DNA of 64,000 nucleotides from contig OY987226.1 in the NCBI GenBank assembly GCA_963920705.1, positions 2,172,501-2,236,500 of the forward strand, in the 5' to 3' direction. Below, piece after piece: positions 22,286 to 50,002 of this stretch (the first letter of the stretch is position 1; every line of letters begins with the position of its first letter). A program made the position numbers and the translations under genes. A model generated the notes under the pieces. It had not been told where the DNA came from. It saw only the letters and a program-made list of their open reading frames with translations, and did no database searches. The stretch comes from Odiellus spinosus. Lineage: Eukaryota > Arthropoda > Arachnida > Opiliones > Phalangiidae.

Positions 22286-22293
22286 TTTATATA
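22286..22293 (-). promoter_or_regulatory. TATA box of repeat-protein gene copy 2
   Basis: TATATAAA on the minus strand, 79 bp before the ATG at 22,207. Confidence 0.7.
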
Positions 22294-25774: not shown

Positions 25775-25852
25775 GATAATTGACTACCCGTCTTATTTTC
25801 AACTCCTTAAACGGCTCGACCTTTGATGATCGGTTTAGAAGACTGTTAAGGG

Positions 25853-25860
25853 TTTATATA
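25853..25860 (-). promoter_or_regulatory. TATA box of repeat-protein gene copy 3
   Basis: TATATAAA on the minus strand, 79 bp before the ATG at 25,774. Confidence 0.7.
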
Positions 25861-27325
25861 CCAATTAACCGTGGTCTTTTTTTAAATGTTTTTTTTTATA
25901 ATAGGCCAAAAACATTGTGGTTGTGTTTACACTATATATTTTTAATTTCAATGTTATGACGTTAACAAATAATTAAAATAAACTTGAGAAGATAAAAACT
26001 GCAGGGGTAATTTCAAACGGGTGAAACTAAAAATAACTTTTTTCTTTTTTAATTTATAAACGAGTAAAAAAAATCAAAAACAATAGATGGTGCAAGGATC
26101 GATTTGTATAAATCTATTGATTTGCAGTAAAGTTTTAAATGGTCGCGCTCTGGAAATTCAAACTCGGATTCCGAACACGTCACGTTGTATTGCGATTGGC
26201 GTTAGGTGCTACTTAACCCCGTCTCTTTACTAACTTTGGTCGCCATTAGTGGGACTTGATGGTTAAATTAGTTAATTAGAAATATGCAATAATTCAAATT
26301 CAATTAGACACTAATTTTAACCAAAAATATTCAAGGACCATGGTTCAAATAAGGATGATTCCTAATAATTTTGTAATACAGAAAAACGCGTGCCTAGAGC
26401 TAATGGGATCTTTAACCCAGTGGTGACTTTCTATTCTAGCCTCTAAAATATTAGTTTACATTCTCATGTATGTCGCGCCAAGACAGTGTCATGTCCTATT
26501 CATCATTGAACAATGAACTAATCATTTTAGTTAATTCGGGTACCAATTGTAGTGCGTATTTGTTGATCAAACTGTATAATTTCACTTTTAACCAATTGTG
26601 TATGGCCCGAACTCTAGTCGAGCTAGGAAGTCTAAAAAAAATTGCTGGCATAGGAATTTTGATATCTTACCGATGTAGTAAAGTTATCAATTTCTGTAAT
26701 TTTCGATTTTCAACGACTATTGTGATTGGTGTTTTTCATATTTCCTAGCTAGAGTTACACTAAAATTCAAGTTGAGTTCTTTGTAAATAATGTAAACGCC
26801 AGGAATTTATATCCAACTGTCACTTTAACAAAGATAGTGGCCATTGTTAGTGACGAGTTGAACGCTAACCACCGGTTTTCTTAAGTTTCCTGATTATATA
26901 TGAAGTAACTTGAACACTAGTTTTACGGTTGAAACAGACAGTATGATTTACCGTTGAAACTGACAGTATTAAGTTAGAAAACCGAATATATCCGGACTAC
27001 ATGTTGAAATTAATTTTTATTATATCAAGCCTATAGGTTTTACAATTTTTAATGAGGTTCTATGAAGTGTATATTTAAGTCTAGTGCACAGTACTCAAAA
27101 CAAGGGTTTACAGACGAATGAAGAAAGCAAATAAATACGATAAATTTAATTTATTATCATTTCCCATTTTATTTACATTAAAAATGTTACCTAGGGAATG
27201 TCGTACAAATATAATTTGATTATAAAACAATTAAATTATGTCCAACAGAACAAGTCGCTTAGTATAGTGCATAGTTGAGATACTAGCGTCATTGATTAAA
27301 TTAAAAATCGAGTCATATTCATAAG
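25861..27325. other. Spacer between copies 3 and 4 (chimeric)
   Basis: Up to about 26,395-26,479 it matches the spacer upstream of copy 1 (6,942 bp to the left). From there on it matches the spacer at 23,040 onwards (3,439 bp to the left). The switch marks a recombination junction. No independent gene was recognised. Confidence 0.6.
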
Positions 27326-29153
27326 TTAAGCCGGATGAAGCAGCAGTGGTGAGGTTGAAAGAGTTCCATTAACTTCCATCGGGTCAAGTTCGAGTTGGCT
27401 GAAATCAATGTCGTCCGTTAATTCCACGAGTGATAGAAGTTTCATAGGCGAGGGGATATCTTCTGGTACATCCGTGGATTCTGTTCCAGAACCGAAAAAA
27501 TAGAATTATACTACGCTTTATATATCGGAACCAAGAGATCATACGTACCACTGTTTCCTTTGTTCTTCAGTAACAGTGATAGGATGTCGTCCTTGCCGCC
27601 ACCTTTCCCTTTCTTGTTCAACAACAGCGATAGGATGTCGTCCTTGCCGCCACCTTTCCCTTTCTTGTTCAACAACAGCGATAGGATGTCGCCCTTGCCG
27701 TCACCTTTGCCTTTCTTGTTCAGTAAGAGCGATAGGATGTCGTCAAATTCCTGGTCTTTCTTGCTGAACAAGAGCGTCATAATTTCGTCGAGCCCTTTGT
27801 CGTCAACTTTTGAACCTTTACAAGAGAAAAAAATATATATTAAATGAACATGCGAAGTTCCTCCTGCCCCATGAAAAAAATTGTGGAACAAGTTGTATTT
27901 AATCATTCAATACCGGAACCTAAAGTCGAGAGCTTCTCATACGCTTCGATTTTGGCGAACAAGAGTGCCAAGGTTTCGAATAATTTCTTATCGTCCAAAT
28001 CCGGACTCGCTGGTACGTTGCATTTCACATTCTTCTGTGTCTCGTCACAATTCTTAACGATGGTGACCGTGACGTTGATGGAATTGCGCTTATTGCCAAC
28101 GTTTTGAACTTGAGTGAATCCAGAATGGTGGGGCAACGACAGAGATTGATGTTCGCTGGGTGTGACTAAAGCGTAGTTGATATCAGAAGTCTTCAGTCCG
28201 GTTGTTGGCAGAGAAGGCCATTTCTGAAATCAAAATTGTTCGGTTTTAATTTTGCTTAGTTTACTCGAAACTTCGTGCCTTACCCAAGCTGGCAAAGATT
28301 TAAGAGGAACGCATGTTTTAAGCGGGGCAAAGGTTGGATAGACTAATGGCTGAATCTGGATGGATTTCGCGGGCAATGGCTTCAAAGACGGAAAGACGAA
28401 TGGCTTGAACGTCGGCATGGGCCAAGATTTAACGGGGGCGAAAGTTGGAAAAGGTTTCAACGATGGAAGAACCAAGGGCTTGAACTGCGGCAACGCCAAG
28501 GATTTAACTGGTAGTGGCTTCAAAGATGGAAAGACGAATGGCTTGTATTGCGGCATCGGTAAAGATTTAACTGGTAGTGGCTTCAAGGATGGAAAAACGA
28601 ATGGTTTGTATTGGGGCATCGGCAAAGATTTCATCGGAGGCAACGTGGGGAATTTGTATGGAACAGGCTTGAAGACGGGTAACGGCGCCATTTTAGGATA
28701 CTGGTAGATTGGATACTGATAGACGTATTTCACTGGCTGGTAGACGGGGATGGATTTCATTTGCACCTGGGATTGTTTTAAAATTGCCATTTTATATTAA
28801 ACAAAGACGGAAAGAAATTCAGGTGACATCTTACCGGAGGATATCCGCATGGCCTGTATCTCGCAATCTGCATTTGGTTATCATCGTAACAAGGTGTTAT
28901 TTCGTCGTAATGCTTGCTTTGCCTTGATTTCCCGTCATTTAGTTCGAAGATAGAATGTCTACTGATTTGTTGATTAGTACCATTGTGTGATATTTGTTGT
29001 AAACTCGTCTCGTTTCCGCCTGTAAGGGAATGGTACTCGAAAATTGAAGCAGAAGATTAATCACAGCTTCCCTGAATACTTACCTTCTGTACTGGCCACT
29101 ACAGCAACGATGAATCCGCAAAGAACCACGCTTATCATTGAAAAGTAACTCAT
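27326..29153 (-). CDS. Secreted Lys/Pro-rich modular repeat protein, copy 4 (489 aa, 6 exons)
   Basis: Exons: 29084-29153, 28835-29019, 28284-28766, 27914-28223, 27549-27815, 27326-27480, phases as in the other copies. The exon 3 and 4 protein segments are identical to copy 2 (two YKPFVFPSLKPLP units). Exon 5 is identical in protein to copy 3. Copy 4 is therefore a chimera of a copy-2 front and a copy-3 back, with the switch near intron 4 (about 27,900). It ends HPA, unlike copy 3. Function unknown. Confidence 0.78.
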
Positions 29154-29231
29154 GATAATAGACTACCCGTATTATTTTCAACTCCTTAAACGGCTCGACC
29201 TTTGATGATCGTTTTAGAAGACTGTTAAGGG

Positions 29232-29239
29232 TTTATATA
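29232..29239 (-). promoter_or_regulatory. TATA box of repeat-protein gene copy 4
   Basis: TATATAAA on the minus strand, 79 bp before the ATG at 29,153. Confidence 0.7.
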
Positions 29240-30832
29240 CCAATTAATCGTGGTCTTTTTTAAATGTTTTTTTTATTTTTATTTTTATAATAGGCCAAAA
29301 ACCTTGTGGTTGTGTTTACACTATATATTTTTAATTTCAATGTTATGACGTTAACAAATAATTAAAATAAACTTGAGAAGATAAAAACTGCAGGCGTAAT
29401 TTCAAACGGGTGAAACTAAAAATAACTTTTTTCTTTTTTAATTTATAAATGAGTAAAAATACACGTATCTTTCTTACTATTGTCGCCATCAAAGCTTGGG
29501 TTGATAAAAATACAGGTTAAACCTTCTCTGACGTCAACAACAAAACCACGTGACTGTTCGTAATCCGGGCTTTATAATCAAAAACAATAGATGGTGCAAG
29601 GATCGATTTGTATAAATCTATTGATTTGCAGTAAAGTTTTAAATGATCTATAGCTCTGGGAATTCAAGCTCAGATTCCGAACACGTCACGTTGTATTGCG
29701 ATTGGCGTTAGGTGCTACTTAACCCCGTCTCTTTAACTAACTTTGGTCGCCATTAGTGGGACTTGATGGTTAAATTAGTTAATTAGAAATATGCAATAAT
29801 TCAAATTCAATTAGACACTAATTTTAACCAAAAATATTGAAGGACCAGGTTTCAAATAAGGATGATACCTAATATTTTTGTAGTAAAGAAAAACGCGTGC
29901 CTAGAGCTAATGGGATCTTTAACCCAGTGGTGACTTTCTATTCTAGCCTCTAAAATATTAGTTTACATTCTCATGTATGTCGCGCCAAGACAGTGTCATG
30001 TCCTATTCATCATTGAACAATGAACTAATCATTTTAGTTAATTCGGGTACCAATTGTAGTGCGTATTTGTTGATCAAACTGTATAATTTCACTTTTAACC
30101 AATTGTGTATGGCCCGAACTCTAGTCGAGCTAGGAAGTCTAAAAAAAATTGCTGGCATAGGAATTTTGATATCTTACCGATGTAGTAAAGTTATCAATTT
30201 CTGTAATTTTCGATTTTCAACGACTATTGTGATTGGTGTTTTTCATATTTCCTAGCTAGAGTTACACTAAAATTCAAGTTGAGTTCTTTGTAAATAATGT
30301 AAACGCCAGGAATTTATATCCAACTGTCACTTTAACAAAGATAGTGGCCATTGTTAGTGACGAGTTGAACGCTAACCACCGGTTTTCTTAAGTTTCCTGA
30401 TTATATATGAAGTAACTTGAACACTAGTTTTACGGTTGAAACAGACAGTATGATTTACCGTTGAAACTGACAGTATTAAGTTAGAAAACCGAATATATCC
30501 GGACTACATGTTGAAATTAATTTTTATTATATCAAGCCTATAGGTTTTACAATTTTTAATGAGGTTCTATGAAGTGTATATTTAAGTCTAGTGCACAGTA
30601 CTCAAAACAAGGGTTTACAGACGAATGAAGAAAGCAAATAAATACGATAAATTTAATTTATTATCATTTCCCATTTTATTTACATTAAAAATGTTACCTA
30701 GGGAATGTCGTACAAATATAATTTGATTATAAAACAATTAAATTATGTCCAACAGAACAAGTCGCTTAGTATAGTGCATAGTTGAGATACTAGCGTCATT
30801 GATTAAATTAAAAATCGAGTCATATTCATAAG
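29240..30832. other. Spacer between copies 4 and 5
   Basis: It matches the spacer between copies 2 and 3 at a constant offset of 6,946 bp, including the 115-bp insert and the 92-codon open frame. No independent gene was recognised. Confidence 0.6.
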
Positions 30833-32594
30833 TTAAGGATGAAGCAGCAGTGGTGAGGTTGAAAGAGTTCCATTAACTTCCATCGGGTCAAGTTCGAGTT
30901 GGCTGAAATCAATGTCGTCCGTTAATTCCACGAGTGATAGAAGTTTCATAGGCGAGGGGATATCTTCTGGTACATCCGTGGATTCTGTTCCAGAACCGAA
31001 AAAATAGAATTATACTACGCTTTATATATCGGAACCAAGAGATCATACGTACCACTGTTTCCTTTGTTCTTCAGTAACAGTGATAGGATGTCGTCCTTGC
31101 CGCCACCTTTCCCTTTCTTGTTCAACAACAGCGATAGGATGTCGTCCTTGCCGCCACCTTTCCCTTTCTTGTTCAACAACAGCGATAGGATGTCGCCCTT
31201 GCCGTCACCTTTGCCTTTCTTGTTCAGTAAGAGCGATAGGATGTCGTCAAATTCCTGGTCTTTCTTGCTGAACAAGAGCGTCATAATTTCGTCGAGCCCT
31301 TTGTCGTCAACTTTTGAACCTTTACAAGAGAAAAAAATATATATTAAATGAACATGCGAAGTTCCTCCTGCCCCATGAAAAAAATTGTGGAACAAGTTGT
31401 ATTTAATCATTCAATACCGGAACCTAAAGTCGAGAGCTTCTCATACGCTTCGATTTTGGCGAACAAGAGTGCCAAGGTTTCGAATAATTTCGTATCGTCC
31501 AAATCCGGACTAAATGGCACTTTGCATTTCACGTTCTTCCGTGTCTCGTCACAATTCTTTACGATGGTGACCGTGACGTTGATGGAATTGCGCTTATTGC
31601 CAACGTTTTGAACTCGAGTGAATCCAGAATGGTAGGGCAACGATAAAGATTGATGTTCGCTGGGTGTGACTAAAGCGTAGTTGATATCAGACGTCTTTAG
31701 TCCGGTTGTTGGCAGAGAAGGCCATTTCTGAAATCAAAATTGTTGGGTTTTAATTTCGCGCAGTTTATTCGAAACTTCGTGTCTTACCCAAGCTGGCAAA
31801 GATTTAGAAGGAACGTATGTTTTAAGCGGGGCAAAGGTTGGATAGACTAATGGCTGAATCTGGATGGATTTCACGGGCAATGGCTTCAAAGATGGTAAGA
31901 CGAATGGCTTAAACGTCGGCATGGGCCAAGATTTAACGGGGGCGAAAGTAGGAAAAGGTTTCAACGATGGAAGAACCAAGGGCTTGAACTGCGGCAACGC
32001 CAAGGATTTAACTGGTAGTGGCTTCAAAGATTTAAAGACGAATGGCTTGTATTGCGGCATTGGCAAAGATTTCATCGGAGGCAACGTGGGGAATTTGTAT
32101 GGAACAGGCTTGAAGACGGGTAACGGCGCCATTTTAGGATACTGGTAGATTGGATACTGATAGACGTATTTCACTGGCTGGTAGACAGGGATGGATTTCA
32201 TTTGCACCTGGGATTGTTTTAAAATTGCCATTTTATATTAAACAAAGATGGAAAGAAATTCAGGTGAAATCTTACCGGAGGATAGCCGCATGGCCTGTAT
32301 CTCGCAATCAGCATTTGGTTATCATCGTAACACGGTGTTATTTCGTCGTAATGCTTGCTTTGCCTTGATTTCCCGTCATTTAGTTCGAAGATAGAATGTC
32401 TACTGATTTGTTGATTAGTACCATTATGTAATATTTGTTGTAAACTCGTCTCGTTTCCGCCTGCAAGGGAATGGTACTCGAAGATTGAAGCAGAAGATTA
32501 ATCACAGCTTCCCTGACTACTTACCTTCTGTACTGGCCACTACAGCAACGATGAATCCGCAAAGAATCACAGTTATCATTGAAAGATAACCCAT
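30833..32594 (-). CDS. Secreted Lys/Pro-rich modular repeat protein, copy 5 (467 aa, 6 exons)
   Basis: Exons: 32525-32594, 32276-32460, 31788-32207, 31418-31727, 31053-31319, 30833-30984, same phases. Exons 4-6 and the 3' part of exon 3 repeat copy 3 at an offset of 6,946 bp. The rest of exon 3 is copy-2-like and has a single YKPFVF unit with a P-to-K change (YKPFVFKSLKPLP). The signal peptide is the most diverged (ITVILCGFIVAVVA) and the start sits in CCATGG. The promoter side also differs most, so this is probably the oldest front end, at the edge of the array. Function unknown. Confidence 0.78.
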
Positions 32595-32682: not shown

Positions 32683-33112
32683 CCAATTAATCATGGTCTT
32701 TATTTTTTAAATATTCTCATAATAGGCCAAAAAACACACTCAAAGGGACAGAAATTAAAAATTGTTGAAATCTCATTTTAAAGGGAAACTGAAAGCTAAC
32801 TTTATTGAATTTATTTTCTGATTGGTTCTATTTTATACTTCACTTACATTTTAACTTTACCAAACTTTAGAAATTAATTTAAATATTTAGAACGTATCCA
32901 ATAATTTAAAAAAAATCTGGAATTCGTTTTTGGCATCCGGTGATTCTAAAAATAAATTCAAAAGCTGTTCCAATTTTAGCTGCTTCCTTCCCTTTAATAC
33001 TTTTGGATGTACTAGTTAATGTTTCTGTTATTTCTCCTATATTTTCCTTTGCGTTATTTCTAGTTTATTGTCATATTATTCGCTTTCTAAAATTCCGATT
33101 TTTTTCCAATCG
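32683..33112. other. AT-rich sequence between the gene array and the satellite block
   Basis: No gene was recognised. The last six bases (33,107-33,112, CAATCG) are repeated right after the block, at 49,226-49,231. Confidence 0.6.
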
Positions 33113-33500
33113 CAGGGTGACCACTTTTCCTATATTTCCTATTTTTTCCTATATTTTCACCTCCTTCCTATTTTCTCCTATAATTTAATGGCAATTCCTA
33201 TAATCTCCTATATTTCTACACAAAATCTCTAGTTAAGGGTAAAGTTCTGAACCATACAGTCAGCTGTGGCTGTATAAGATTATACATATAAATTCCATAC
33301 TATTTAAGCAATTGGATCGTATTAAAACCGTGTTTAAACCGGTGGCGAGAGTTGTGACGCGATAATAAACATGGTTCCTACTTTTAATTAATTATTTTCC
33401 TATTTTATCATATATTTTACACTTATTTCTTCCTATATTTTCCTATATTTCGCAAAGAAATTTCCTATATAGGATTTTCAAATTTTCAGTGGTCACCCTG
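33113..33500 (+). mobile_element. 388-bp MITE (TATATTTCC family), left copy
   Basis: The ends are CAGGGTGACCACT and its exact inverted form AGTGGTCACCCTG. Next to each end are sub-repeats of the type TTTCCTATATTTCC. The interior has CAGTCAGCTGTGGCTGTA and TTTAAACCGGTGG, shared with the right copy. The satellite starts directly after its last base. Confidence 0.92.
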
Positions 33501-36500
33501 CCCTTGTCTTACCACTTTTCCCTTGTCTTACCACTTTTCCCTTGTCTTACCACTTTTCCCTTGTCTTACCACTTTTCCCTTGTCTTACCACTTTTCCCTT
33601 GTCTTACCACTTTTTCCCCTGTCTTATACCACTTTTTCCCCTGTCTTACCACTTTTTCCCCTGTCTTACCACTTTTTCCCCTGTCTTACCACTTTTTCCC
33701 CTGTCTTACCACTTTTCCCTTGTCTTACCACTTTTCCCTTGTCTTACCACTTTTCCCTTGTCTTACCACTTTTTCCCCTGTCTTATACCACTTTTTCCCC
33801 TGTCTTACCACTTTTCCCCTGTCTTACCACTTTTTCCCCTGTCTTACCACTTTTTCCCCTGTCTTACCACTTTTTCCCTTGTCTTACCACTTTTTCCCCT
33901 GTCTTACCACTTTTTCCCCTGTCTTATCACTTTTTCCCCTGTCTTACCACTTTTCCCTTGTCTTACCACTTTTCCCTTGTCTTACCACTTTTCCCTTGTC
34001 TTACCACTTTTTCCCTTGTCTTACCACTTTTTCCCCTGTCTTATACCACTTTTTCCCCTGTCTTACCACTTTTCCCCTGTCTTACCACTTTTTCCCCTGT
34101 CTTACCACTTTTTCCCCTGTCTTACCACTTTTTCCCCTGTCTTACCACTTTTTCCCCTGTCTTACCACTTTTTCCCCTGTCTTACCACTTTTTCCCCTGT
34201 CTTACCACTTTTCCCTTGTCTTACCACTTTTCCCTTGTCTTACCACTTTTCCCTTGTCTTACCACTTTTCCCTTGTCTTACCACTTTTTCCCTTGTCTTA
34301 CCACTTTTTCCCCTGTCTTATACCACTTTTTCCCCTGTCTTACCACTTTTTCCCCTGTCTTACCACTTTTTCCCCTGTCTTACCACTTTTTCCCCTGTCT
34401 TACCACTTTTCCCTTGTCTTACCACTTTTCCCTTGTCTTACCACTTTTCCCTTGTCTTACCACTTTTTCCCTTGTCTTACCACTTTTTCCCCTGTCTTAC
34501 CACTTTTTCCCCTGTCTTACCACTTTTCCCTTGTCTTACCACTTTTCCCTTGTCTTACCACTTTTCCCTTGTCTTACCACTTTTCCCTTGTCTTACCACT
34601 TTTTCCCTTGTCTCACCACTTTTTCCCCTGTCTTATACCACTTTTTCCCCTGTCTTACCACTTTTTCCCCTGTCTTACCACTTTTTCCCCTGTCTTACCA
34701 CTTTTTCCCCTGTCTTACCACTTTTCCCTTGTCTTACCACTTTTCCCTTGTCTTACCACTTTTCCCTTGTCTTACCACTTTTTCCCTTGTCTTACCACTT
34801 TTTCCCCTGTCTTATACCACTTTTCCCCTGTCTTACCACTTTTCCCCTGTCTTACCACTTTTTCCCCTGTCTTACCACTTTTTCCCCTGTCTTACCACTT
34901 TTTCCCTTGTCTTACCACTTTTTCCCTTGTCTTACCACTTTTCCCTTGTCTTACCACTTTTCCCTTGTCTTACCACTTTTTCCCTTGTCTTACCACTTTT
35001 TCCCCTGTCTTAACACTTTTTCCCCTGTCTTACCACTTTTCCCTTGTCTTACCACTTTTCCCTTGTCTTACCACTTTTCCCTTGTCTTACCACTTTTCCC
35101 TTGTCTTACCACTTTTTCCCTTGTCTTACCACTTTTTCCCCTGTCTTATACCACTTTTTCCCCTGTCTTACCACTTTTTCCCCTGTCTTACCACTTTTTC
35201 CCCTGTCTTACCACTTTTTCCCCTGTCTTACCACTTTTCCCTTGTCTTACCACTTTTTCCCCTGTCTTATACCACTTTTCCCCTGTCTTACCACTTTTCC
35301 CTTGTCTTACCACTTTTCCCTTGTCTTACCACTTTTCCCTTGTCTTACCACTTTTTCCCTTGTCTTACCACTTTTTCCCCTGTCTTACCACTTTTTCCCC
35401 TGTCTTACCACTTTTTCCCCTGTCTTACCACTTTTCCCTTGTCTTACCACTTTTCCCTTGTCTTACCACTTTTCCCTTGTCTTACCACTTTTCCCTTGTC
35501 TTACCACTTTTTCCCTTGTCTTACCACTTTTTCCCCTGTCTTATACCACTTTTTCCCCTGTCTTACCACTTTTTCCCCTGTCTTACCACTTTTTCCCCTG
35601 TCTTACCACTTTTTCCCCTGTCTTACCACTTTTCCCTTGTCTTACCACTTTTCCCTTGTCTTACCACTTTTTCCCCTGTCTTATACCACTTTTCCCCTGT
35701 CTTACCACTTTTCCCTTGTCTTACCACTTTTCCCTTGTCTTACCACTTTTCCCTTGTCTTACCACTTTTTCCCTTGTCTTACCACTTTTTCCCCTGTCTT
35801 ATACCACTTTTTCCCCTGTCTTACCACTTTTTCCCCTGTCTTACCACTTTTTCCCCTGTCTTACCACTTTTTCCCCTGTCTTACCACTTTTCCCTTGTCT
35901 TACCACTTTTTCCCTTGTCTTACCACTTTTTCCCCTGTCTTATACCACTTTTCCCCTGTCTTACCACTTTTTCCCCTGTCTTACCACTTTTTCCCCTGTC
36001 TTACCACTTTTCCCTTGTCTTACCACTTTTCCCTTGTCTTACCACTTTTCCCTTGTCTTACCACTTTTCCCTTGTCTTACCACTTTTTCCCTTGTCTTAC
36101 CACTTTTTCCCCTGTCTTATACCACTTTTTCCCCTGTCTTACCACTTTTTCCCCTGTCTTACCACTTTTTCCCCTGTCTTACCACTTTTTCCCCTGTCTT
36201 ACCACTTTTCCCTTGTCTTACCACTTTTCCCTTGTCTTACCACTTTTCCCTTGTCTTACCACTTTTTCCCTTGTCTTACCACTTTTTCCCCTGTCTTATA
36301 CCACTTTTTCCCCTGTCTTACCACTTTTCCCCTGTCTTACCACTTTTTCCCCTGTCTTACCACTTTTTCCCCTGTCTTACCACTTTTCCCTTGTCTTACC
36401 ACTTTTCCCTTGTCTTACCACTTTTCCCCTGTCTTACCACTTTTTCCCCTGTCTTACCACTTTTTCCCCTGTCTTACCACTTTTTCCCCTGTCTTACCAC

Positions 36501-39500
36501 TTTTTCCCCTGTCTTACCACTTTTTCCCCTGTCTTACCACTTTTTCCCCTGTCTTACCACTTTTTCCCCTGTCTTACCACTTTTTCCCCTGTCTTACCAC
36601 TTTTCCCTTGTCTTACCACTTTTCCCTTGTCTTACCACTTTTCCCTTGTCTTACCACTTTTCCCTTGTCTTACCACTTTTTCCCTTGTCTTACCACTTTT
36701 TCCCCTGTCTTATACCACTTTTTCCCCTGTCTTACCACTTTTTCCCCTGTCTTACCACTTTTCCCTTGTCTTACCACTTTTCCCTTGTCTTACCACTTTT
36801 CCCTTGTCTTACCACTTTTTCCCTTGTCTTACCACTTTTCCCCTGTCTTATACCACTTTTCCCCTGTCTTACCACTTTTCCCCTGTCTTACCACTTTTTC
36901 CCCTGTCTTACCACTTTTTCCCCTGTCTTACCACTTTTTCCCCTGTCTTACCACTTTTCCCTTGTCTTACCACTTTTTCCCCTGTCTTATACCACTTTTC
37001 CCCTGTCTTACCACTTTTCCCTTGTCTTACCACTTTTCCCTTGTCTTACCACTTTTCCCTTGTCTTACCACTTTTTCCCTTGTCTTACCACTTTTTCCCC
37101 TGTCTTACCACTTTTTCCCCTGTCTTACCACTTTTTCCCCTGTCTTACCACTTTTCCCTTGTCTTACCACTTTTCCCTTGTCTTACCACTTTTCCCTTGT
37201 CTTACCACTTTTCCCTTGTCTTACCACTTTTTCCCTTGTCTTACCACTTTTTCCCCTGTCTTATACCACTTTTTCCCCTGTCTTACCACTTTTTCCCCTG
37301 TCTTACCACTTTTTCCCCTGTCTTACCACTTTTTCCCCTGTCTTACCACTTTTCCCTTGTCTTACCACTTTTCCCTTGTCTTACCACTTTTTCCCCTGTC
37401 TTATACCACTTTTCCCCTGTCTTACCACTTTTCCCTTGTCTTACCACTTTTCCCTTGTCTTACCACTTTTCCCTTGTCTTACCACTTTTTCCCTTGTCTT
37501 ACCACTTTTTCCCCTGTCTTATACCACTTTTTCCCCTGTCTTACCACTTTTTCCCCTGTCTTACCACTTTTTCCCCTGTCTTACCACTTTTTCCCCTGTC
37601 TTACCACTTTTCCCTTGTCTTACCACTTTTTCCCTTGTCTTACCACTTTTTCCCCTGTCTTATACCACTTTTCCCCTGTCTTACCACTTTTTCCCCTGTC
37701 TTACCACTTTTTCCCCTGTCTTACCACTTTTCCCTTGTCTTACCACTTTTCCCTTGTCTTACCACTTTTCCCTTGTCTTACCACTTTTCCCTTGTCTTAC
37801 CACTTTTTCCCTTGTCTTACCACTTTTTCCCCTGTCTTATACCACTTTTTCCCCTGTCTTACCACTTTTTCCCCTGTCTTACCACTTTTTCCCCTGTCTT
37901 ACCACTTTTTCCCCTGTCTTACCACTTTTCCCTTGTCTTACCACTTTTCCCTTGTCTTACCACTTTTCCCTTGTCTTACCACTTTTTCCCTTGTCTTACC
38001 ACTTTTTCCCCTGTCTTATACCACTTTTTCCCCTGTCTTACCACTTTTCCCCTGTCTTACCACTTTTTCCCCTGTCTTACCACTTTTTCCCCTGTCTTAC
38101 CACTTTTCCCTTGTCTTACCACTTTTCCCTTGTCTTACCACTTTTCCCCTGTCTTACCACTTTTTCCCCTGTCTTACCACTTTTTCCCCTGTCTTACCAC
38201 TTTTTCCCCTGTCTTACCACTTTTTCCCCTGTCTTACCACTTTTTCCCCTGTCTTACCACTTTTTCCCCTGTCTTACCACTTTTTCCCCTGTCTTACCAC
38301 TTTTTCCCCTGTCTTACCACTTTTCCCTTGTCTTACCACTTTTCCCTTGTCTTACCACTTTTCCCTTGTCTTACCACTTTTCCCTTGTCTTACCACTTTT
38401 TCCCTTGTCTTACCACTTTTTCCCCTGTCTTATACCACTTTTTCCCCTGTCTTACCACTTTTTCCCCTGTCTTACCACTTTTCCCTTGTCTTACCACTTT
38501 TCCCTTGTCTTACCACTTTTCCCTTGTCTTACCACTTTTTCCCTTGTCTTACCACTTTTCCCCTGTCTTATACCACTTTTCCCCTGTCTTACCACTTTTC
38601 CCCTGTCTTACCACTTTTTCCCCTGTCTTACCACTTTTTCCTCTGTCTTACCACTTTTTCCCTTGTCTTACCACTTTTTCCCCTGTCTTACCACTTTTTC
38701 CCCTGTCTTACCACTTTTTCCCCTGTCTTACCACTTTTCCCTTGTCTTACCACTTTTCCCTTGTCTTACCACTTTTTCCCTTGTCTTACCACTTTTTCCC
38801 CTGTCTTACCACTTTTCCCTTGTCTTACCACTTTTCCCTTGTCTTACCACTTTTTCCCTTGTCTTACCACTTTTTCCCCTGTCTTTACCACTTTTTCCCC
38901 TGTCTTACCACTTTTTCCCCTGTCTTACCACTTTTTCCCCTGTCTTACCACTTTTTCCCCTGTCTTACCACTTTTTCCCCTGTCTTACCACTTTTCCCTT
39001 GTCTTACCACTTTTCCCTTGTCTTACCACTTTTCCCTTGTCTTACCACTTTTCCCTTGTCTTACCACTTTTTCCCTTGTCTTACCACTTTTTCTCCTGTC
39101 TTTACCACTTTTTCCCCTGTCTTACCACTTTTTCCCCTGTCTTACCACTTTTTCCCCTGTCTTACCACTTTTTCCCCTGTCTTACCACTTTTCCCTTGTC
39201 TTACCACTTTTCCCTTGTCTTACCACTTTTCCCTTGTCTTACCACTTTTTCCCTTGTCTTACCACTTTTTCCCCTGTCTTATACCACTTTTTCCCCTGTC
39301 TTACCACTTTTCCCCTGTCTTACCACTTTTTCCCCTGTCTTACCACTTTTTCCCCTGTCTTACCACTTTTTCCCTTGTCTTACCACTTTTTCCCCTGTCT
39401 TACCACTTTTTCCCCTGTCTTACCACTTTTTCCCCTGTCTTACCACTTTTCCCTTGTCTTACCACTTTTCCCTTGTCTTACCACTTTTCCCTTGTCTTAC

Positions 39501-42500
39501 CACTTTTTCCCTTGTCTTACCACTTTTTCCCCTGTCTTATACCACTTTTTCCCCTGTCTTACCACTTTTCCCCTGTCTTACCACTTTTTCCCCTGTCTTA
39601 CCACTTTTTCCCCTGTCTTACCACTTTTCCCTTGTCTTACCACTTTTCCCTTGTCTTACCACTTTTCCCCTGTCTTACCACTTTTTCCCCTGTCTTACCA
39701 CTTTTTCCCCTGTCTTACCACTTTTTCCCCTGTCTTACCACTTTTTCCCCTGTCTTACCACTTTTTCCCCTGTCTTACCACTTTTTCCCCTGTCTTACCA
39801 CTTTTCCCTTGTCTTACCACTTTTCCCTTGTCTTACCACTTTTCCCTTGTCTTACCACTTTTCCCTTGTCTTACCACTTTTTCCCTTGTCTTACCACTTT
39901 TTCCCCTGTCTTATACCACTTTTTCCCCTGTCTTACCACTTTTTCCCCTGTCTTACCACTTTTCCCTTGTCTTACCACTTTTCCCTTGTCTTACCACTTT
40001 TCCCTTGTCTTACCACTTTTTCCCTTGTCTTACCACTTTTTCCCCTGTCTTATACCACTTTTTCCCCTGTCTTACCACTTTTGCCCCTGTCTTACCACTT
40101 TTTCCCCTGTCTTACCACTTTTTCCCCTGTCTTACCACTTTTCCCTTGTCTTACCACTTTTCCCTTGTCTTACCACTTTTCCCCTGTCTTACCACTTTTT
40201 CCCCTGTCTTACCACTTTTTCCCCTGTCTTACCACTTTTTCCCCTGTCTTACCACTTTTTCCCCTGTCTTACCACTTTTTCCCCTGTCTTACCACTTTTT
40301 CCCCTGTCTTACCACTTTTTCCCCTGTCTTACCACTTTTCCCCTGTCTTACCACTTTTTCCCTGTCTTACCACTTTTCCCTTGTCTTACCACTTTTTCCC
40401 TTGTCTTACCACTTTTTCCCCTGTCTTACCACTTTTTCCCCTGTCTTACCACTTTTTCCCCTGTCTTACCACTTTTTCCCCTGTCTTACCACTTTTCCCT
40501 TGTCTTACCACTTTTCCCTTGTCTTACCACTTTTCCCTTGTCTTACCACTTTTCCCTTGTCTTACCACTTTTCCCTTGTCTTACCACTTTTTCCCTTGTC
40601 TTACCACTTTTTCCCCTGTCTTACCACTTTTTCCCCTGTCTTACCACTTTTTCCCCTGTCTTACCACTTTTTCCCCTGTCTTACCACTTTTTCCCCTGTC
40701 TTACCACTTTTCCCTTGTCTTACCACTTTTCCCTTGTCTTACCACTTTTCCCTTGTCTTACCACTTTTTCCCTTGTCTTACCACTTTTTCCCCTGTCTTA
40801 CCACTTTTTCCCCTGTCTTACCACTTTTCCCCTGTCTTACCACTTTTTCCTGTCTCCCTTTCCTGTCTTACCACTTTTTCCCCTGTCTTACCACTTTTTC
40901 CCCTTGTCTTACCACTTTTCCCCTGTCTTACCACTTTTCCCTTGTCTTACCACTTTTCCCCTGTCTTACCACTTTTCCCCTTGTCTTACCACTTTTCCCT
41001 TGTCTTACCACTTTTCCCCTTGTCTTACCACTTTTTCCCCTGTCTTACCACTTTTTCCCCTGTCTTACCACTTTTCCCCTGTCTTACCACTTTTTCCCCT
41101 GTCTTACCACTTTTTCCCCTGTCTTACCACTTTTTCCCCTGTCTTACCACTTTTTCCCCTGTCTTACACTTTTTCCCCTGTCTTACCACTTTTTCCCCTG
41201 TCTTACCACTTTTTCCCCTGTCTTACCACTTTTCCCTTGTCTTACCACTTTTCCCTTGTCTTACCACTTTTCCCTTGTCTTACCACTTTTCCCTTGTCTT
41301 ACACTTTTTCCCTTGTCTTACCACTTTTTCCCCTGTCTTATACCACTTTTTCCCCTGTCTTACCACTTTTTCCCCTGTCTTACCACTTTTTCCCCTGTCT
41401 TACCACTTTTTCCCCTGTCTTACCACTTTTCCCTTGTCTTACCACTTTTCCCTTGTCTTACCACTTTTTCCCTTGTCTTACCACTTTTCCCCTGTCTTAT
41501 ACCACTTTTCCCTGTCTTACCACTTTTCCCCTGTCTTACCACTTTTTCCCCTGTCTTACCACTTTTTCCCCTGTCTTACCACTTTTTCCCTGTCTTACCA
41601 CTTTTCCCTTGTCTTACCACTTTTTCCCCTGTCTTATACCACTTTTCCCCTGTCTTACCACTTTTCCCTTGTCTTACCACTTTTCCCTTGTCTTACCACT
41701 TTTCCCTTGTCTTACCACTTTTTCCCTTGTCTTACCACTTTTTCCCCTGTCTTACCACTTTTTCCCCTGTCTTACCACTTTTTCCCCTGTCTTACCACTT
41801 TTCCCTTGTCTTACCACTTTTCCCTTGTCTTACCACTTTTCCCTTGTCTTACCACTTTTCCCTTGTCTTACCACTTTTTCCCTTGTCTTACCACTTTTTC
41901 CCCTGTCTTATACCACTTTTTCCCCTGTCTTACCACTTTTTCCCCTGTCTTACCACTTTTTCCCCTGTCTTACCACTTTTTCCCCTGTCTTACCACTTTT
42001 CCCTTGTCTTACCACTTTTCCCTTGTCTTACCACTTTTTCCCCTGTCTTATACCACTTTTCCCCTGTCTTACCACTTTTCCCTTGTCTTACCACTTTTCC
42101 CTTGTCTTACCACTTTTCCCTTGTCTTACCACTTTTTCCCTTGTCTTACCACTTTTTCCCCTGTCTTATACCACTTTTTCCCCTGTCTTACCACTTTTTC
42201 CCCTGTCTTACCACTTTTTCCCCTGTCTTACCACTTTTTCCCCTGTCTTACCACTTTTCCCTTGTCTTACCACTTTTTCCCTTGTCTTACCACTTTTTCC
42301 CCTGTCTTATACCACTTTTCCCCTGTCTTACCACTTTTTCCCCTGTCTTACCACTTTTTCCCCTGTCTTACCACTTTTCCCTTGTCTTACCACTTTTCCC
42401 TTGTCTTACCACTTTTCCCTTGTCTTACCACTTTTCCCTTGTCTTACCACTTTTTCCCTTGTCTTACCACTTTTTCCCCTGTCTTATACCACTTTTTCCC

Positions 42501-45500
42501 CTGTCTTACCACTTTTTCCCCTGTCTTACCACTTTTTCCCCTGTCTTACCACTTTTTCCCCTGTCTTACCACTTTTCCCTTGTCTTACCACTTTTCCCTT
42601 GTCTTACCACTTTTCCCTTGTCTTACCACTTTTTCCCTTGTCTTACCACTTTTTCCCCTGTCTTATACCACTTTTTCCCCTGTCTTACCACTTTTCCCCT
42701 GTCTTACCACTTTTTCCCCTGTCTTACCACTTTTTCCCCTGTCTTACCACTTTTCCCTTGTCTTACCACTTTTCCCTTGTCTTACCACTTTTCCCCTGTC
42801 TTACCACTTTTTCCCCTGTCTTACCACTTTTTCCCCTGTCTTACCACTTTTTCCCCTGTCTTACCACTTTTTCCCCTGTCTTACCACTTTTTCCCCTGTC
42901 TTACCACTTTTTCCCCTGTCTTACCACTTTTTCCCCTGTCTTACCACTTTTTCCCCTGTCTTACCACTTTTCCCTTGTCTTACCACTTTTCCCTTGTCTT
43001 ACCACTTTTCCCTTGTCTTACCACTTTTCCCTTGTCTTACCACTTTTTCCCTTGTCTTACCACTTTTTCCCCTGTCTTATACCACTTTTTCCCCTGTCTT
43101 ACCACTTTTTCCCCTGTCTTACCACTTTTCCCTTGTCTTACCACTTTTCCCTTGTCTTACCACTTTTCCCTTGTCTTACCACTTTTTCCCTTGTCTTACC
43201 ACTTTTCCCCTGTCTTATACCACTTTTTCCCCTGTCTTACCACTTTTCCCCTGTCTTACCACTTTTTCCCCTGTCTTACCACTTTTTCCTCTGTCTTACC
43301 ACTTTTTCCCTTGTCTTACCACTTTTTCCCCTGTCTTACCACTTTTTCCCCTGTCTTACCACTTTTTCCCCTGTCTTACCACTTTTCCCTTGTCTTACCA
43401 CTTTTCCCTTGTCTTACCACTTTTTCCCTTGTCTTACCACTTTTTCCCCTGTCTTACCACTTTTCCCTTGTCTTACCACTTTTCCCTTGTCTTACCACTT
43501 TTTCCCTTGTCTTACCACTTTTTCCCCTGTCTTTACCACTTTTTCCCCTGTCTTACCACTTTTTCCCCTGTCTTACCACTTTTTCCCCTGTCTTACCACT
43601 TTTTCCCCTGTCTTACCACTTTTTCCCCTGTCTTACCACTTTTCCCTTGTCTTACCACTTTTCCCTTGTCTTACCACTTTTCCCTTGTCTTACCACTTTT
43701 CCCTTGTCTTACCACTTTTTCCCTTGTCTTACCACTTTTTCTCCTGTCTTTACCACTTTTTCCCCTGTCTTACCACTTTTTCCCCTGTCTTACCACTTTT
43801 TCCCCTGTCTTACCACTTTTTCCCCTGTCTTACCACTTTTCCCTTGTCTTACCACTTTTCCCTTGTCTTACCACTTTTCCCTTGTCTTACCACTTTTCCC
43901 TTGTCTTACCACTTTTTCCCTTGTCTTACCACTTTTTCCCCTGTCTTATACCACTTTTTCCCCTGTCTTACCACTTTTCCCCTGTCTTACCACTTTTTCC
44001 CCTGTCTTACCACTTTTTCCCTTGTCTTACCACTTTTTCCCTTGTCTTACCACTTTTTCCCCTGTCTTACCACTTTTTCCCCTGTCTTACCACTTTTTCC
44101 CCTGTCTTACCACTTTTCCCTTGTCTTACCACTTTTCCCTTGTCTTACCACTTTTCCCTTGTCTTACCACTTTTTCCCTTGTCTTACCACTTTTTCCCCT
44201 GTCTTATACCACTTTTTCCCCTGTCTTACCACTTTTCCCCTGTCTTACCACTTTTTCCCCTGTCTTACCACTTTTTCCCCTGTCTTACCACTTTTCCCTT
44301 GTCTTACCACTTTTCCCTTGTCTTACCACTTTTCCCCTGTCTTACCACTTTTTCCCCTGTCTTACCACTTTTTCCCCTGTCTTACCACTTTTTCCCCTGT
44401 CTTACCACTTTTTCCCCTGTCTTACCACTTTTTCCCCTGTCTTACCACTTTTTCCCCTGTCTTACCACTTTTCCCTTGTCTTACCACTTTTCCCTTGTCT
44501 TACCACTTTTCCCTTGTCTTACCACTTTTCCCTTGTCTTACCACTTTTTCCCTTGTCTTACCACTTTTTCCCCTGTCTTATACCACTTTTTCCCCTGTCT
44601 TACCACTTTTTCCCCTGTCTTACCACTTTTCCCTTGTCTTACCACTTTTCCCTTGTCTTACCACTTTTCCCTTGTCTTACCACTTTTTCCCTTGTCTTAC
44701 CACTTTTTCCCCTGTCTTATACCACTTTTTCCCCTGTCTTACCACTTTTGCCCTGTCTTACCACTTTTTCCCCTGTCTTACCACTTTTTCCCCTGTCTTA
44801 CCACTTTTCCCTTGTCTTACCACTTTTCCCTTGTCTTACCACTTTTCCCCTGTCTTACCACTTTTTCCCCTGTCTTACCACTTTTTCCCCTGTCTTACCA
44901 CTTTTTCCCCTGTCTTACCACTTTTTCCCCTGTCTTACCACTTTTTCCCCTGTCTTACCACTTTTTCCCCTGTCTTACCACTTTTTCCCCTGTCTTACCA
45001 CTTTTCCCCCTGTCTTACCACTTTTTCCCCTGTCTTACCACTTTTCCCTTGTCTTACCACTTTTTCCCTTGTCTTACCACTTTTTCCCCTGTCTTATACC
45101 ACTTTTTCCCCTGTCTTACCACTTTTTCCCCTGTCTTACCACTTTTTCCCCTGTCTTACCACTTTTCCCTTGTCTTACCACTTTTCCCTTGTCTTACCAC
45201 TTTTCCCTTGTCTTACCACTTTTCCCTTGTCTTACCACTTTTCCCTTGTCTTACCACTTTTTCCCTTGTCTTACCACTTTTTCCCCTGTCTTATACCACT
45301 TTTTCCCCTGTCTTACCACTTTTTCCCCTGTCTTACCACTTTTTCCCCTGTCTTACCACTTTTTCCCCTGTCTTACCACTTTTCCCTTGTCTTACCACTT
45401 TTCCCTTGTCTTACCACTTTTCCCTTGTCTTACCACTTTTTCCCTTGTCTTACCACTTTTTCCCCTGTCTTATACCACTTTTTCCCCTGTCTTACCACTT

Positions 45501-48500
45501 TTCCCCTGTCTTACCACTTTTTCCCCTGTCTTACCACTTTTTCCCCTGTCTTACCACTTTTTCCCTTGTCTTACCACTTTTTCCCCTGTCTTACCACTTT
45601 TCCCTTGTCTTACCACTTTTCCCTTGTCTTACCACTTTTCCCTTGTCTTACCACTTTTCCCTTGTCTTACCACTTTACCCTTGTCTTACCACTTTTTCCC
45701 CTGTCTTACCACTTTTTCCCCTGTCTTACCACTTTTTCCCCTGTCTTACCACTTTTTCCCCTGTCTTACCACTTTTTCCCCTGTCTTACCACTTTTTCCC
45801 CTGTCTTACCACTTTTTCCCCTGTCTTACCACTTTTTCCCCTGTCTTACCACTTTTTCCCCTGTCTTACCACTTTTTCCCCTGTCTTACCACTTTTCCCT
45901 TGTCTTACCACTTTTCCCTTGTCTTACCACTTTTCCCTTGTCTTACCACTTTTCCCTTGTCTTACCACTTTTTCCCTTGTCTTACCACTTTTTCCCCTGT
46001 CTTATACCACTTTTTCCCCTGTCTTACCACTTTTTCCCCTGTCTTACCACTTTTTCCCCTGTCTTACCACTTTTTCCCCTGTCTTACCACTTTTCCCTTG
46101 TCTTACCACTTTTCCCTTGTCTTACCACTTTTCCCTTGTCTTACCACTTTTTCCCTTGTCTTACCACTTTTTCCCCTGTCTTATACCACTTTTTCCCCTG
46201 TCTTACCACTTTTCCCCTGTCTTACCACTTTTTCCCCTGTCTTACCACTTTTTCCCCTGTCTTACCACTTTTTCCCCTGTCTTACCACTTTTTCCCCTGT
46301 CTTACCACTTTTTCCCCTGTCTTACCACTTTTTCCCCTGTCTTACCACTTTTCCCTTGTCTTACCACTTTTCCCTTGTCTTACCACTTTTCCCTTGTCTT
46401 ACCACTTTTCCCTTGTCTTACCACTTTTTCCCTTGTCTTACCACTTTTTCCCCTGTCTTATACCACTTTTTCCCCTGTCTTACCACTTTTTCCCCTGTCT
46501 TACCACTTTTTCCCCTGTCTTACCACTTTTTCCCCTGTCTTACCACTTTTCCCTTGTCTTACCACTTTTCCCTTGTCTTACCACTTTTCCCTTGTCTTAC
46601 CACTTTTTCCCTTGTCTTACCACTTTTTCCCCTGTCTTATACCACTTTTTCCCCTGTCTTACCACTTTTCCCCTGTCTTACCACTTTTTTCCCTGTCTTA
46701 CCACTTTTTCCCCTGTCTTACCACTTTTTCCCTTGTCTTACCACTTTTTCCCCTGTCTTACCACTTTTCCCTTGTCTTACCACTTTTCCCTTGTCTTACC
46801 ACTTTTCCCTTGTCTTACCACTTTTCCCTTGTCTTACCACTTTACCCTTGTCTTACCACTTTTTCCCCTGTCTTACCACTTTTTCCCCTGTCTTACCACT
46901 TTTTCCCCTGTCTTACCACTTTTTCCCCTGTCTTACCACTTTTTCCCCTGTCTTACCACTTTTTCCCCTGTCTTACCACTTTTTCCCCTGTCTTACCACT
47001 TTTCCCTTGTCTTACCACTTTTCCCTTGTCTTACCACTTTTCCCTTGTCTAACCACTTTTTCCCTTGTCTTACCACTTTTTCCCCTGTCTTATACCACTT
47101 TTTCCCCTGTCTTACCACTTTTCCCCTGTCTTACCACTTTTTCCCCTGTCTTACCACTTTTTCCCCTGTCTTACCACTTTTTCCCTTGTCTTACCACTTT
47201 TTCCCCTGTCTTACCACTTTTCCCTTGTCTTACCACTTTTCCCTTGTCTTACCACTTTTCCCTTGTCTTACCACTTTTCCCTTGTCTTACCACTTTACCC
47301 TTGTCTTACCACTTTTTCCCCTGTCTTACCACTTTTTCCCCTGTCTTACCACTTTTCCCCCTGTCTTACCACTTTTTCCCCTGTCTTACCACTTTTTCCC
47401 CTGTCTTACCACTTTTTCCCCTGTCTTACCACTTTTCCCTTGCAGGGTGACCACTTTTCCCTTGTCTTACCACTTTTTCCCCTGTCTTATACCACTTTTT
47501 CCCCTGTCTTACCACTTTTCCCCTGTCTTACCACTTTTTCCCCTGTCTTACCACTTTTTCCCCTGTCTTACCACTTTTTCCCTTGTCTTACCACTTTTTC
47601 CCCTGTCTTACCACTTTTTCCCCTGTCTTACCACTTTTTCCCCTGTCTTACCATTTTTCCCTTGTCTTACCACTTTTCCCTTGTCTTACCACTTTTCCCT
47701 TGTCTTACCACTTTTCCCTTGTCTTACCACTTTTCCCTTGTCATACCACTTTTTCCCCTGTCTTACCACTTTTTCCCCTGTCTTACCACTTTTTCCCCTG
47801 TCTTACCACTTTTTCCCCTGTCTTACCACTTTTTCCCCTGTCTTACCACTTTTTCCCCTGTCTTACCACTTTTCCCTTGCAGGGTGACCACTTTTCCCTT
47901 GTCTTACCACTTTTTCCCCTGTCTTATACCACTTTTTCCCCTGTCTTACCACTTTTCCCCTGTCTTACCACTTTTTCCCCTGTCTTACCACTTTTTCCCC
48001 TGTCTTACCACTTTTTCCCCTGTCTTACCACTTTTTCCCCTGTCTTACCACTTTTTCCCTTGTCTTACCACTTTTTCCCCTGTCTTACCACTTTTTCCCC
48101 TGTCTTACCACTTTTTCCCCTGTCTTACCACTTTTCCCTTGTCTTACCACTTTTCCCTTGTCTTACCACTTTTCCCTTGTCTTACCACTTTTCCCTTGTC
48201 TTACCACTTTTCCCTTGTCTTACCACTTTTTCCCCTGTCTTACCACTTTTTCCCCTGTCTTACCACTTTTCCCTTGTCTTACCACTTTTCCCCTGTCTTA
48301 CCACTTTTCCCTTGTCTTACCACTTTTCCCTTGTCTTACCACTTTTCCCTTGTCTTACCACTTTTCCCTTGTCTTACCACTTTTTCCCTTGTCTTACCAC
48401 TTTTTCCCCTGTCTTACCACTTTTTCCCCTGTCTTACCACTTTTTCCCCTGTCTTACCACTTTTTCCCGTCTTACCACTTTTTCCCCTGTCTTACCACTT

Positions 48501-48765
48501 TTCCCTTGTCTTACCACTTTTCCCTTGTCTTACCACTTTTCCCTTGTCTTACCACTTTTCCCTTGTCTTACCACTTTTTCCCCTGTCTTACCACTTTTTC
48601 CCCTGTCTTACCACTTTTTCCCCTGTCTTACCACTTTTTCCCCTGTCTTACCACTTTTTCCCCTGTCTTACCACTTTTTCCCCTGTCTTACCACTTTTTC
48701 CCCTGTCTTACCACTTTTCCCTTGCAGGGTGACCACTTTTCCCTTGTCTTACCACTTTTCCCTTG
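33501..48765 (+). repeat. 15.3-kb satellite array of 19/20/22-bp units
   Basis: About 770 units of three forms: CTTACCACTTTTTCCCCTGT (20 bp), CTTACCACTTTTCCCTTGT (19 bp), and a 22-bp form with an extra TA (CTTATACCAC). Mixed forms also occur. The plus strand is mostly pyrimidine. Rare point variants (CTCTGTC, CTCCTGTC, TTTACCC, TTGCCCC) recur at fixed distances and show higher-order periods of 1,720 bp and about 4.65 kb. Long open frames (up to 4,781 codons in three forward frames) exist only because the unit lacks a forward stop. They end at the TGA inside MITE-end motifs. Confidence 0.97.
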
Positions 48766-48779
48766 CAGGGTGACCACTT
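47443..48779 (+). repeat. MITE-end motifs embedded in the satellite
   Basis: The string CAGGGTGACCACTTTTCC, the terminal motif of the flanking MITE, occurs at 47,443, 47,880, 48,725 and 48,766. At the first three it runs straight back into satellite units. At the fourth it continues into the complete right MITE copy. Confidence 0.9.
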
Positions 48780-49225
48780 TTCCTATATTTCCTATTTTTT
48801 CCTATATTTTCACCTCCTTCCTATATTCTCCTATAATTTAATGTCAATTCCTATAATCTCCTATATTTCTACTCAAAATCTCTAGTTAAGGGTAAAGTTC
48901 TAAATCATACTGTCAGCTGTGGCTGTATAAGATTATTTTAGCTTAACTGTACATTTTCCAGTTAAAATAGTCTGTAACATTCCATACTATTTAAGCAATT
49001 GGGTCATATTAATACCACGTTTAAACCGGTGGAGAGAGTTGTGACACAATAATAAACATGGTTCCTAATTTTAATTATTTATTTTCCTATTTTATCATAT
49101 ATTTTACACTTCTTCCTATATTATCCTATATTTTACATAAAATTCTTCCTATATTTTCCTATATTTCGCAAAGAAATTTCCTATATTTCCTATATAGGAT
49201 TTTCAAATTTTCAGTGGTCACCCTG
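48766..49225 (+). mobile_element. 460-bp MITE (TATATTTCC family), right copy
   Basis: Same ends as 33,113-33,500 and clearly related inside, but with extra sequence around 48,933-48,980 (TTTAGCTTAACTGTACATTT) and scattered substitutions, so the two copies are not recent twins. CAATCG follows at 49,226-49,231. Confidence 0.9.
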
Positions 49226-49285
49226 CAATCGTTGAACGCAGAATAAATCATTTTTCTTCCTTTTCGTCGGACCTTTTAAATATAT

Positions 49286-49623
49286 CAGAAGCCGATGAAA
49301 CCCTCCTTTGAAGTCTATTACTCCCGGGTCTTGTCTACCCCTCTCTGTATGGGTTATTCTCAAAAGGCGCGATTCGTACGCCTCCTAACGGTAGATGTTT
49401 TCGGAGCGGGAGCTCGTCGAGCGAATATCTCTAGCAACCTTGGAGTTCGTCAACCAAACGTCGTCGTTTGTGGAGAGAGAGAATTTCCAATTTTCCGTAG
49501 ACAGGGGGGTATGAAGTAGGACCCCTCCGATCTCGTAAAATTGGGAATTTTACCCATACAGAGAGGAGCGCTATATGGAACATTAGAGTAGTAGACTTCA
49601 AAGGAGGGTTTCATCGGCTTCTG
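49286..49623 (-). mobile_element. 338-bp MITE, family 1, copy d
   Basis: CCCGGGTCTTG side first, as in copies b and f. It starts CAGAAGCC and ends GGCTTCTG. The flanks AAATATAT and ATTATACT are AT-rich and only loosely alike, so no clean target duplication remains. Confidence 0.9.
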
Positions 49624-50002
49624 ATTATACTTAGATTAAATTATATTTTTTGCAAACCAAATATTTGTTCATAGAGTTCGTTTTTCAGCCCTTTTTTTTT
49701 TATTAATTTAGATAATTCTTTTTAATATCATAACTGTTAGATGTTGGGATTGAAATTTTCACAACTAGTTTGAGCTGGTTTTATTTTCCAGGGAAAACTT
49801 ATAACTACTGTTTAATACTTTGAGACGATTAGTTCTAATTAAATTTGGAATTAAGAGAAGCATGTATCCTGTTTCATTGTCATACTTATTTCCCGCTTAT
49901 TGTTTAAAATAATATCGCGCTTAACAGATGGCGAAATAATAATTTAATCTTTTAAAATTCTCAATTACACTTAATTGTTCCAACGTTTGGTGATGAAACC
50001 CC
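49624..50002. other. AT-rich sequence, nothing recognised
   Basis: No gene, RNA or repeat was recognised. Confidence 0.5.

Follow-up and report, generated by a model that had tools for sequence, protein, structure and literature searches.

Satellite arrays attached to miniature inverted-repeat transposable elements (MITEs) are already known. In Xenopus, tandem repeats reside on Xstir (Hikosaka and Kawahara 2004) and miDNA4 (Scalvenzi and Pollet 2014), and MITE, array and composite forms of Xstir occur side by side (PMC12628747, PMC9659126). For miDNA4, the authors' proposal is given as capture of a pre-existing repeat (PMC12628747) and is elsewhere worded as birth of the monomer within the MITE (PMC9659126). 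In Drosophila virilis, Tetris/TIR-220 repeats share 37 bp with the end region of the element (PMC4079207), Helitron/Helentron and pearl elements are associated with satellite-like arrays (PMC12628747, PMC7492417, PMC9659126), and two P element copies can move en bloc by macrotransposition (PMC1562414). It is still unsettled how satellites come to occupy many distant sites along chromosome arms. Here we describe a locus of the harvestman Odiellus spinosus, within a 64,000-nucleotide stretch (the window, C2:2172501-2236500 of the 443-Mb genome), in which an array of short satellite units is enclosed by a pair of MITEs in direct orientation. We conclude that positions 33113-49225 probably represent a single copy of a composite, non-autonomous DNA transposon, made of two direct MITEs with a short-unit satellite as cargo and moved by macrotransposition.

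As with Xstir and miDNA4, a MITE family here is joined to tandem arrays whose copy number varies. In those systems, as described, the array is internal to the element or derived from its sequence, whereas here the array, up to 15 kb long, stands between two whole direct MITEs. A MITE of the miDNA4 kind with an internal satellite was rejected as a description of this locus, since both flanking MITEs are full elements, with two terminal inverted repeats (TIRs) apiece. Tetris is also a non-autonomous DNA transposon with end-sharing repeats, and its kb-size arrays are found inside and outside the element, but it is a foldback element with repeats within long TIRs and 8-10-bp duplications rather than a direct MITE pair (PMC4079207). 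As in P-element macrotransposition, the outer ends of neighbouring elements would act together and carry along the DNA between them; the cargo here differs in being a satellite, with the same package at several sites. In the descriptions compared, Helitron, Helentron and pearl elements lack a full MITE pair with a 6-bp duplication. We noticed no satellite bracketed by two direct MITEs and moving as a unit in the open-licence literature, and we make no claim of its absence. What sets this case apart is the bracketing of an array by two direct MITEs and its probable movement as a package, and the presence of this package at several sites appears to show one way for a satellite array to be spread. 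With carrier, ends, target duplications and empty targets all visible, transposition of whole arrays can be tested against its alternatives, birth in place and the reintegration of circles.

The package and its target sites

Sequence reading of the window shows a CAATCG target duplication (33107-33112) followed directly by the left MITE (MITE-L; 33113-33500, + strand, 388 bp), a satellite array (33501-48765, + strand), the right MITE (MITE-R; 48766-49225, + strand, 460 bp) and a second CAATCG (49226-49231). The initial annotation had described this layout correctly to the base, and the lone CAATCG pair supports its view of a single insertion with one target duplication. MITE-L, delimited by sequence reading, alignment with MITE-R and a substitution table, has the same orientation as MITE-R, and both carry a perfect 13-bp TIR, CAGGGTGACCACT. 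The two copies can be aligned end to end (80.2% identity with gaps counted, 94.0% at aligned bases), MITE-L being shorter owing to internal indels. Tandem-repeat finding and unit counts show that the array consists mostly of 19-22-bp units, with CCCTTGTCTTACCACTTTT (19 bp) and CCCCTGTCTTACCACTTTTT (20 bp) as main forms; Tandem Repeats Finder reported 773 copies of period 20 with 95% matches at 33501-48759. On the array side, both MITEs are flanked by CCCTTG (33501-33506 for MITE-L; 48760-48765 for MITE-R, by sequence reading), which is as long as a target duplication and in phase with the satellite. We interpret the inner CCCTTG flank of MITE-L as the remnant of an older target duplication. 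An LTR-like (long terminal repeat) reading of the direct terminal repeats was rejected, as inverted ends are present on both flanking copies and solo copies with duplications of equal length are common.

A genome-wide search for the MITE-to-satellite junction, allowing up to three mismatches, found seven places, on C2 (the window), C3, C4, C5, C7, C14 and C15. Whole arrays were fetched on C3, C4, C5 and C15, and all of them end in a second MITE in direct orientation. Each of the five packages with both ends readable has a perfect outer 6-bp duplication, and all five duplications differ: CAATCG in the window, CCTTTG on C3, ACCTAG on C4, GAAGTA on C5 and TGTAGG on C15. The inner flanks are CCCTTG throughout, save for CCCTTA at the right of the C5 package, and the phase of the satellite relative to the MITEs is identical in the window package and the other four. 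On C14 the array runs into a 200-N gap and then an inverted array, and on C7 it ends in unrelated sequence without a MITE. The C7 package is suggestive of MITE-R excision with a footprint, its left TGATGG and right CAATGG matching at only four of six positions.

Empty versions of the target were found for two of the five packages. The C4 package lies in a tandem repeat, and its joined, unfilled 27-base target has 638 occurrences genome-wide with no more than three mismatches, 25 of them exact; the fetched sequence gave 23 alignments, some from overlapping loci, with ACCTAG exact in 12 of the 16 listed. The C5 package lies in a dispersed repeat, for which 17 alignments across the unfilled target were found in fetched sequence, six of them in the window, and GAAGTA is present once in all 16 alignments listed. 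One such empty paralogue lies close to the window package itself (49482-49572, + strand), with its single GAAGTA at 49513-49518. This search covered the C4 target genome-wide and the C5 target in fetched sequence; the empty sites of the window, C3 and C15 packages were not sought genome-wide.

Some features of these targets deserve description in their own right. A tandem repeat of about 172-180 bp containing ACCTAG is present at C4 ~19846500-19849000 and at many other places, and other MITEs start after ACCTAG at C1:21996314, C1:22281149 and C7:18966900; this repeat may be a favoured MITE target. The window holds six copies of a dispersed repeat of about 340 bp (at 3.2k, 5.7k, 10.2k, 49.3-49.6k, 59.5k and 60.7k) with 40-nt inverted arms (49284-49323 and 49586-49625), and the C5 package target is of this kind.

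Related elements flank the cargo, with one target duplication for the whole, in five of five readable packages, and the package recurs across the genome, two of the five having empty paralogous targets, as in a composite transposon. Ac/Ds elements and bacterial composite transposons are likewise neighbouring elements that move the DNA intervening between them. In the mechanism we propose, a transposase supplied from elsewhere would bring together the two outer ends, the left one of MITE-L and the right one of MITE-R, and movement of the whole package by these ends would generate the 6-bp target duplication. The initial annotation had the satellite growing here from a simple MITE insertion, with one MITE inserting and dimerizing at this site and the satellite being born and growing between its ends. 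A single CAATCG duplication, the kinship of the package MITEs and an 11-bp overlap between satellite and MITE end are all compatible with such growth in place. It is nonetheless very improbable, as the same package, in the same phase, is found at four other loci with other duplications, two of them with empty targets, and a form of the array edge is common to several packages. The same package at four other loci, with its other duplications and two empty targets, argues that the package existed before it arrived in the window, and only the later change of the array is local to this site. Misjoined repeats could also have placed MITEs on both sides of an array, and the 200-N gap within the array on C14 and the C6 array, whose orientation alternates, speak for such misjoining; five loci with distinct outer flanks and perfect, distinct duplications, two of them with empty paralogues, make such an artefact the least probable explanation of all.

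The MITE family and kinship of the package copies

The flanking copies have the features of a MITE: 388-460 bp in length, a 13-bp TIR, many copies and a usual 6-bp duplication, with coding capacity judged by length alone. In a genome search with 1325 candidates, the 40 that were scored gave at least 59 matches. Among 19 solo MITEs with both ends readable, the flanking duplication, read by eye, was perfect over 6 bp in nine and matched at five of six positions in three; one further copy matched at four of six and the remaining six showed no match. The usual target duplication of this MITE family is 6 bp. The survey of copies with and without arrays that the initial annotation had suggested thus gave five readable packages and 19 solos with tabulated duplications, and the duplications of another length that it had named as evidence against itself were not seen among the solos. 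Copies fetched twice were counted once (L007/L024, L008/L025, L026/L039, the second L027 copy/L040 and L028/L041), and the 19 exclude L054 (no end found), L037/L064 (a dimer), L038 (truncated), a copy downstream of the C5 package (left end altered) and an additional element of another kind in L028. In the tree and the substitution table the C5 downstream copy was included, giving 20 solos.

The hAT superfamily typically makes 8-bp target duplications. The 6 bp found in packages and solos do not fit hAT, and no superfamily was assigned on the CAGGG start of this MITE, which we take to be hAT-like. Two fused MITEs at C2:1442768 (L037/L064) form one longer element with a single pair of ends. This copy, with CCCTTG on its left, was rejected, being a fused dimer with a mismatched right flank. 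In other copies a MITE-internal stretch is matched repeatedly, as at C18:8969245-8969603.

Five substitutions (alignment columns 130, 161, 164, 265 and 280) are absent from all 20 solos and present together in both MITEs of the C3, C5 and C15 packages, as well as in MITE-R of C4 and MITE-L of C7. Their presence in both MITEs at three loci indicates that both derive from one MITE, in keeping with the common origin put forward in the initial annotation. Columns 295 and 330 are shared by five of five MITE-R copies and by none of the 20 solos, and column 170 marks MITE-L at five of the seven loci. In the tree, 11 of the 12 package MITEs fall in one group (ultrafast bootstrap 84; Shimodaira-Hasegawa-like approximate likelihood ratio test, SH-aLRT, 97), and the MITE-R copies from four loci are grouped at 94/76. 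We read these data as suggesting that a single MITE was doubled into a pair before the package spread, and that the MITEs exchanged sequence later.

Several observations weigh against the composite transposon. In the window, MITE-L has columns 130, 161 and 164 and MITE-R the other two, with none in both; MITE-L of C4 holds three of the five substitutions and MITE-L of C14 none, and the latter is placed among solos in the tree. The packages on C14 and C7 have no readable MITE-R, so that their right ends could not be scored, and array lengths depend on the assembly of near-identical repeats. The assembly holds no satellite-MITE-satellite source locus, all nine exact occurrences of CCCTTG plus the MITE start lying within packages, and no transposase was found at the three of seven places read, one of them over 7 kb, at which the 13-bp end has a different continuation. 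The split of the five substitutions between the window MITEs points to exchange of sequence between MITEs, and with such exchange the history is not wholly clean. It slightly weakens the case for the composite transposon and slightly raises that for ectopic gene conversion, in which pre-existing solo MITEs with their own duplications would have been turned into packages by copying from one package. The left part of the window MITE-R, the right parts of MITE-L in the window and on C4, and MITE-L of C14 do have the states of solos. Against conversion stand the likeness of all five MITE-R copies at columns 295 and 330, which no solo shares, the full set of package substitutions in both MITEs of C3, C5 and C15, and the tracts of 2-15 kb that it would require at every site. 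We therefore retain conversion as a rival and regard it as unlikely, though less so than growth in place.

Among the candidates for an autonomous partner, C3:11142899 (L070, 601 bases) is MITE-like with tandem repeats, judged on its first 400 bases and without a scan for open reading frames (ORFs). At C7:23425749 (L071, L072) no second MITE end was found within 7 kb at up to two mismatches; two ORFs of more than 120 codons there are by eye not transposase-like, and no database was searched with them. The candidate at C7:11190136 was rejected, being the solo L053 itself.

Structure and origin of the satellite array

Arrays measure 15.3 kb in the window, 5.6 kb on C4, 2.0 kb on C15, 3.8 kb on C3 and 4.2 kb on C5. 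The genome contains 1847 exact 20-bp units, 919 of which lie in the stretches of the seven junction loci, with flanks and the inverted part of C14 included. The 19-bp CCCTTG units lie at array edges and the 20-bp units in mid-array. A comparison of six arrays, with C7 left out, revealed variants private to single loci, such as a 21-bp form present in 46 copies on C4 only. A 41-bp right-edge form with the first bases of the MITE is common to the window, C4 and C5 packages, which argues that array sequence travelled together with the MITEs. In the window array, sequence self-comparison found a 1766-bp stretch exactly repeated at a lag of 1720 bp (35156-38641, + strand), and 1640-bp stretches are exactly repeated at lags of 4647 and 6367 bp. 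These long exact repeats are a sign of recent kb-scale growth by large exchanges, or a product of assembly. After landing, the array would grow and shrink locally by unequal exchange, and such change can be read from loci of common descent.

An array of the 19-bp unit has 11 bases (ACCACTTTTCC) in common with bases 8-18 of the MITE. When units were base-shuffled, an 11-base match arose in 1 of 4000 in comparison with the 25 bases at either MITE end and in 4 of 400 in comparison with the whole MITE. Three places in the window array have CCCTTG followed by the first 18 MITE bases, all on the + strand: 47437-47460, 47874-47897 and 48719-48742, the third 41 bp upstream of MITE-R. Arrays without a MITE pair were sought by edge patterns that catch part of the possible edges, and at least five were found: on C1, with edges about 13 kb apart; on C2 at about 6.297-6.307 Mb; on C5 from 16.92 Mb, with the right edge not reached; on C7 at 23.56 Mb; and a mixed array on C6 of alternating orientation, with a truncated MITE end adjoining at two places. 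The C7 array was read whole and the others in part. The initial annotation had named an orthologous site holding the satellite without the MITEs as evidence against itself; arrays without the pair do exist, but at other places than that site.

Two kinds of satellite join were also seen. In the C6 array, at 16407826-16424906 (L063, L068, L069), the orientation of the satellite flips many times at GAAAAAGTGGT-CTTACCAC junctions. At C3:21141500-21143583 (L061), a different satellite (GGGTCCGACTTTTCGTTTT) directly abuts the CCCTTG satellite, after which CCCTTCAAG and the first 18 MITE bases are joined to a near copy of the left flank of the C3 package.

These data bear on how the package got its satellite: by ancestral birth from the MITE, which is possible, or by capture. 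In the first case the unit would have been made once from CCCTTG and the first MITE bases inside a dimer, the finished package would then have transposed, and free arrays would be packages whose MITEs were lost. The unit CCCTTG-TCTT-ACCACTTTT does parallel CCCTTG-CAGGGTG-ACCACTTTT(CC) at the junction beside MITE-R, although the change from CAGGGTG to TCTT is left unexplained. The 11-bp match is rare in shuffled units, and the MITE-start forms near the right array edge are as expected, yet these forms would arise equally well from later slippage over the common ACCACTTTT. Array edges without a MITE also fall at the phase of the MITE junction, in edge classes defined post hoc with the data already seen: four of five left edges do so, with CCCTTG (C6), CCTTG (C1 and C2) and TTG (C7, 23.56 Mb), and four of five right edges lie just past CCCTT, including those of the damaged C7 package and a C3 fragment. 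Such clustering would fit loss of the MITEs. On C6, a 19-bp CATTTG unit, CATTTGTCGCACCACTTCT, passes directly into 16-bp units, GTTTCATTTGTCACCC, which adjoin a second MITE-like family starting CAGGGGTGTAGCTA (L069), and the resemblance of ACTTTTCATTTGTC there to the satellite is, by eye, roughly equal to that of the MITE end. This transition and the ACTTTTCATTTGTC match suggest an older satellite; the arrays without a MITE pair, together with the hybrid stretch of 19- and 16-bp units, point the same way. Ancestral birth is a tentative explanation, and of the two origins, capture of the satellite seems to us somewhat likelier than its birth from the MITE end. The founding event would have been the entry of one MITE into the satellite, or its seeding of it, leaving the MITE in or beside the array with CCCTTG as its own 6-bp duplication; this MITE may then have been duplicated together with the array by unequal exchange.

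Related arrays and neighbouring features

The family starting CAGGGGTGTAGCTA is associated with related arrays at other places as well. On C5 (L060), three units, CATTTGTCTTACCACTTTT, stand against the CAGGGGTGTAGCTA start, and 16-bp units lie within that element. About 15-23 kb beyond the C4 package, the CAGGGGTGTAGCTA start recurs in alternation with blocks of the 16-bp unit and with blocks of TTCAAGTGTCGTCGTTTGT, a unit of 19 bp. The family alternates with GTTTCATTTGTCACCC arrays both there (L011, C4:19859300-19869299), where TTCAAGTGTCGTCGTTTGT arrays also take part, and at L069. It is possible that this family with its arrays is a parallel case of MITE-bracketed satellites. MITE pairs might then be a general engine of satellite dispersal, with at least two families (CAGGGTGACCAC and CAGGGGTGTAGCTA) bracketing related arrays of 16-20-bp units, composite transposons of 2-15 kb, growth after landing and release by excision of the flanking MITEs; we put this forward as a speculative proposal with less than even prospects. 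If it holds, MITE excision would account for the clustering of free-array edges in phase with the MITE junctions.

To the left of the package, the window carries five tandem ORF copies on the minus strand (16848-32231), spaced about 3.5 kb apart with tandem repeats in between. They encode a proline- and lysine-rich repeat protein of 165-219 amino acids.

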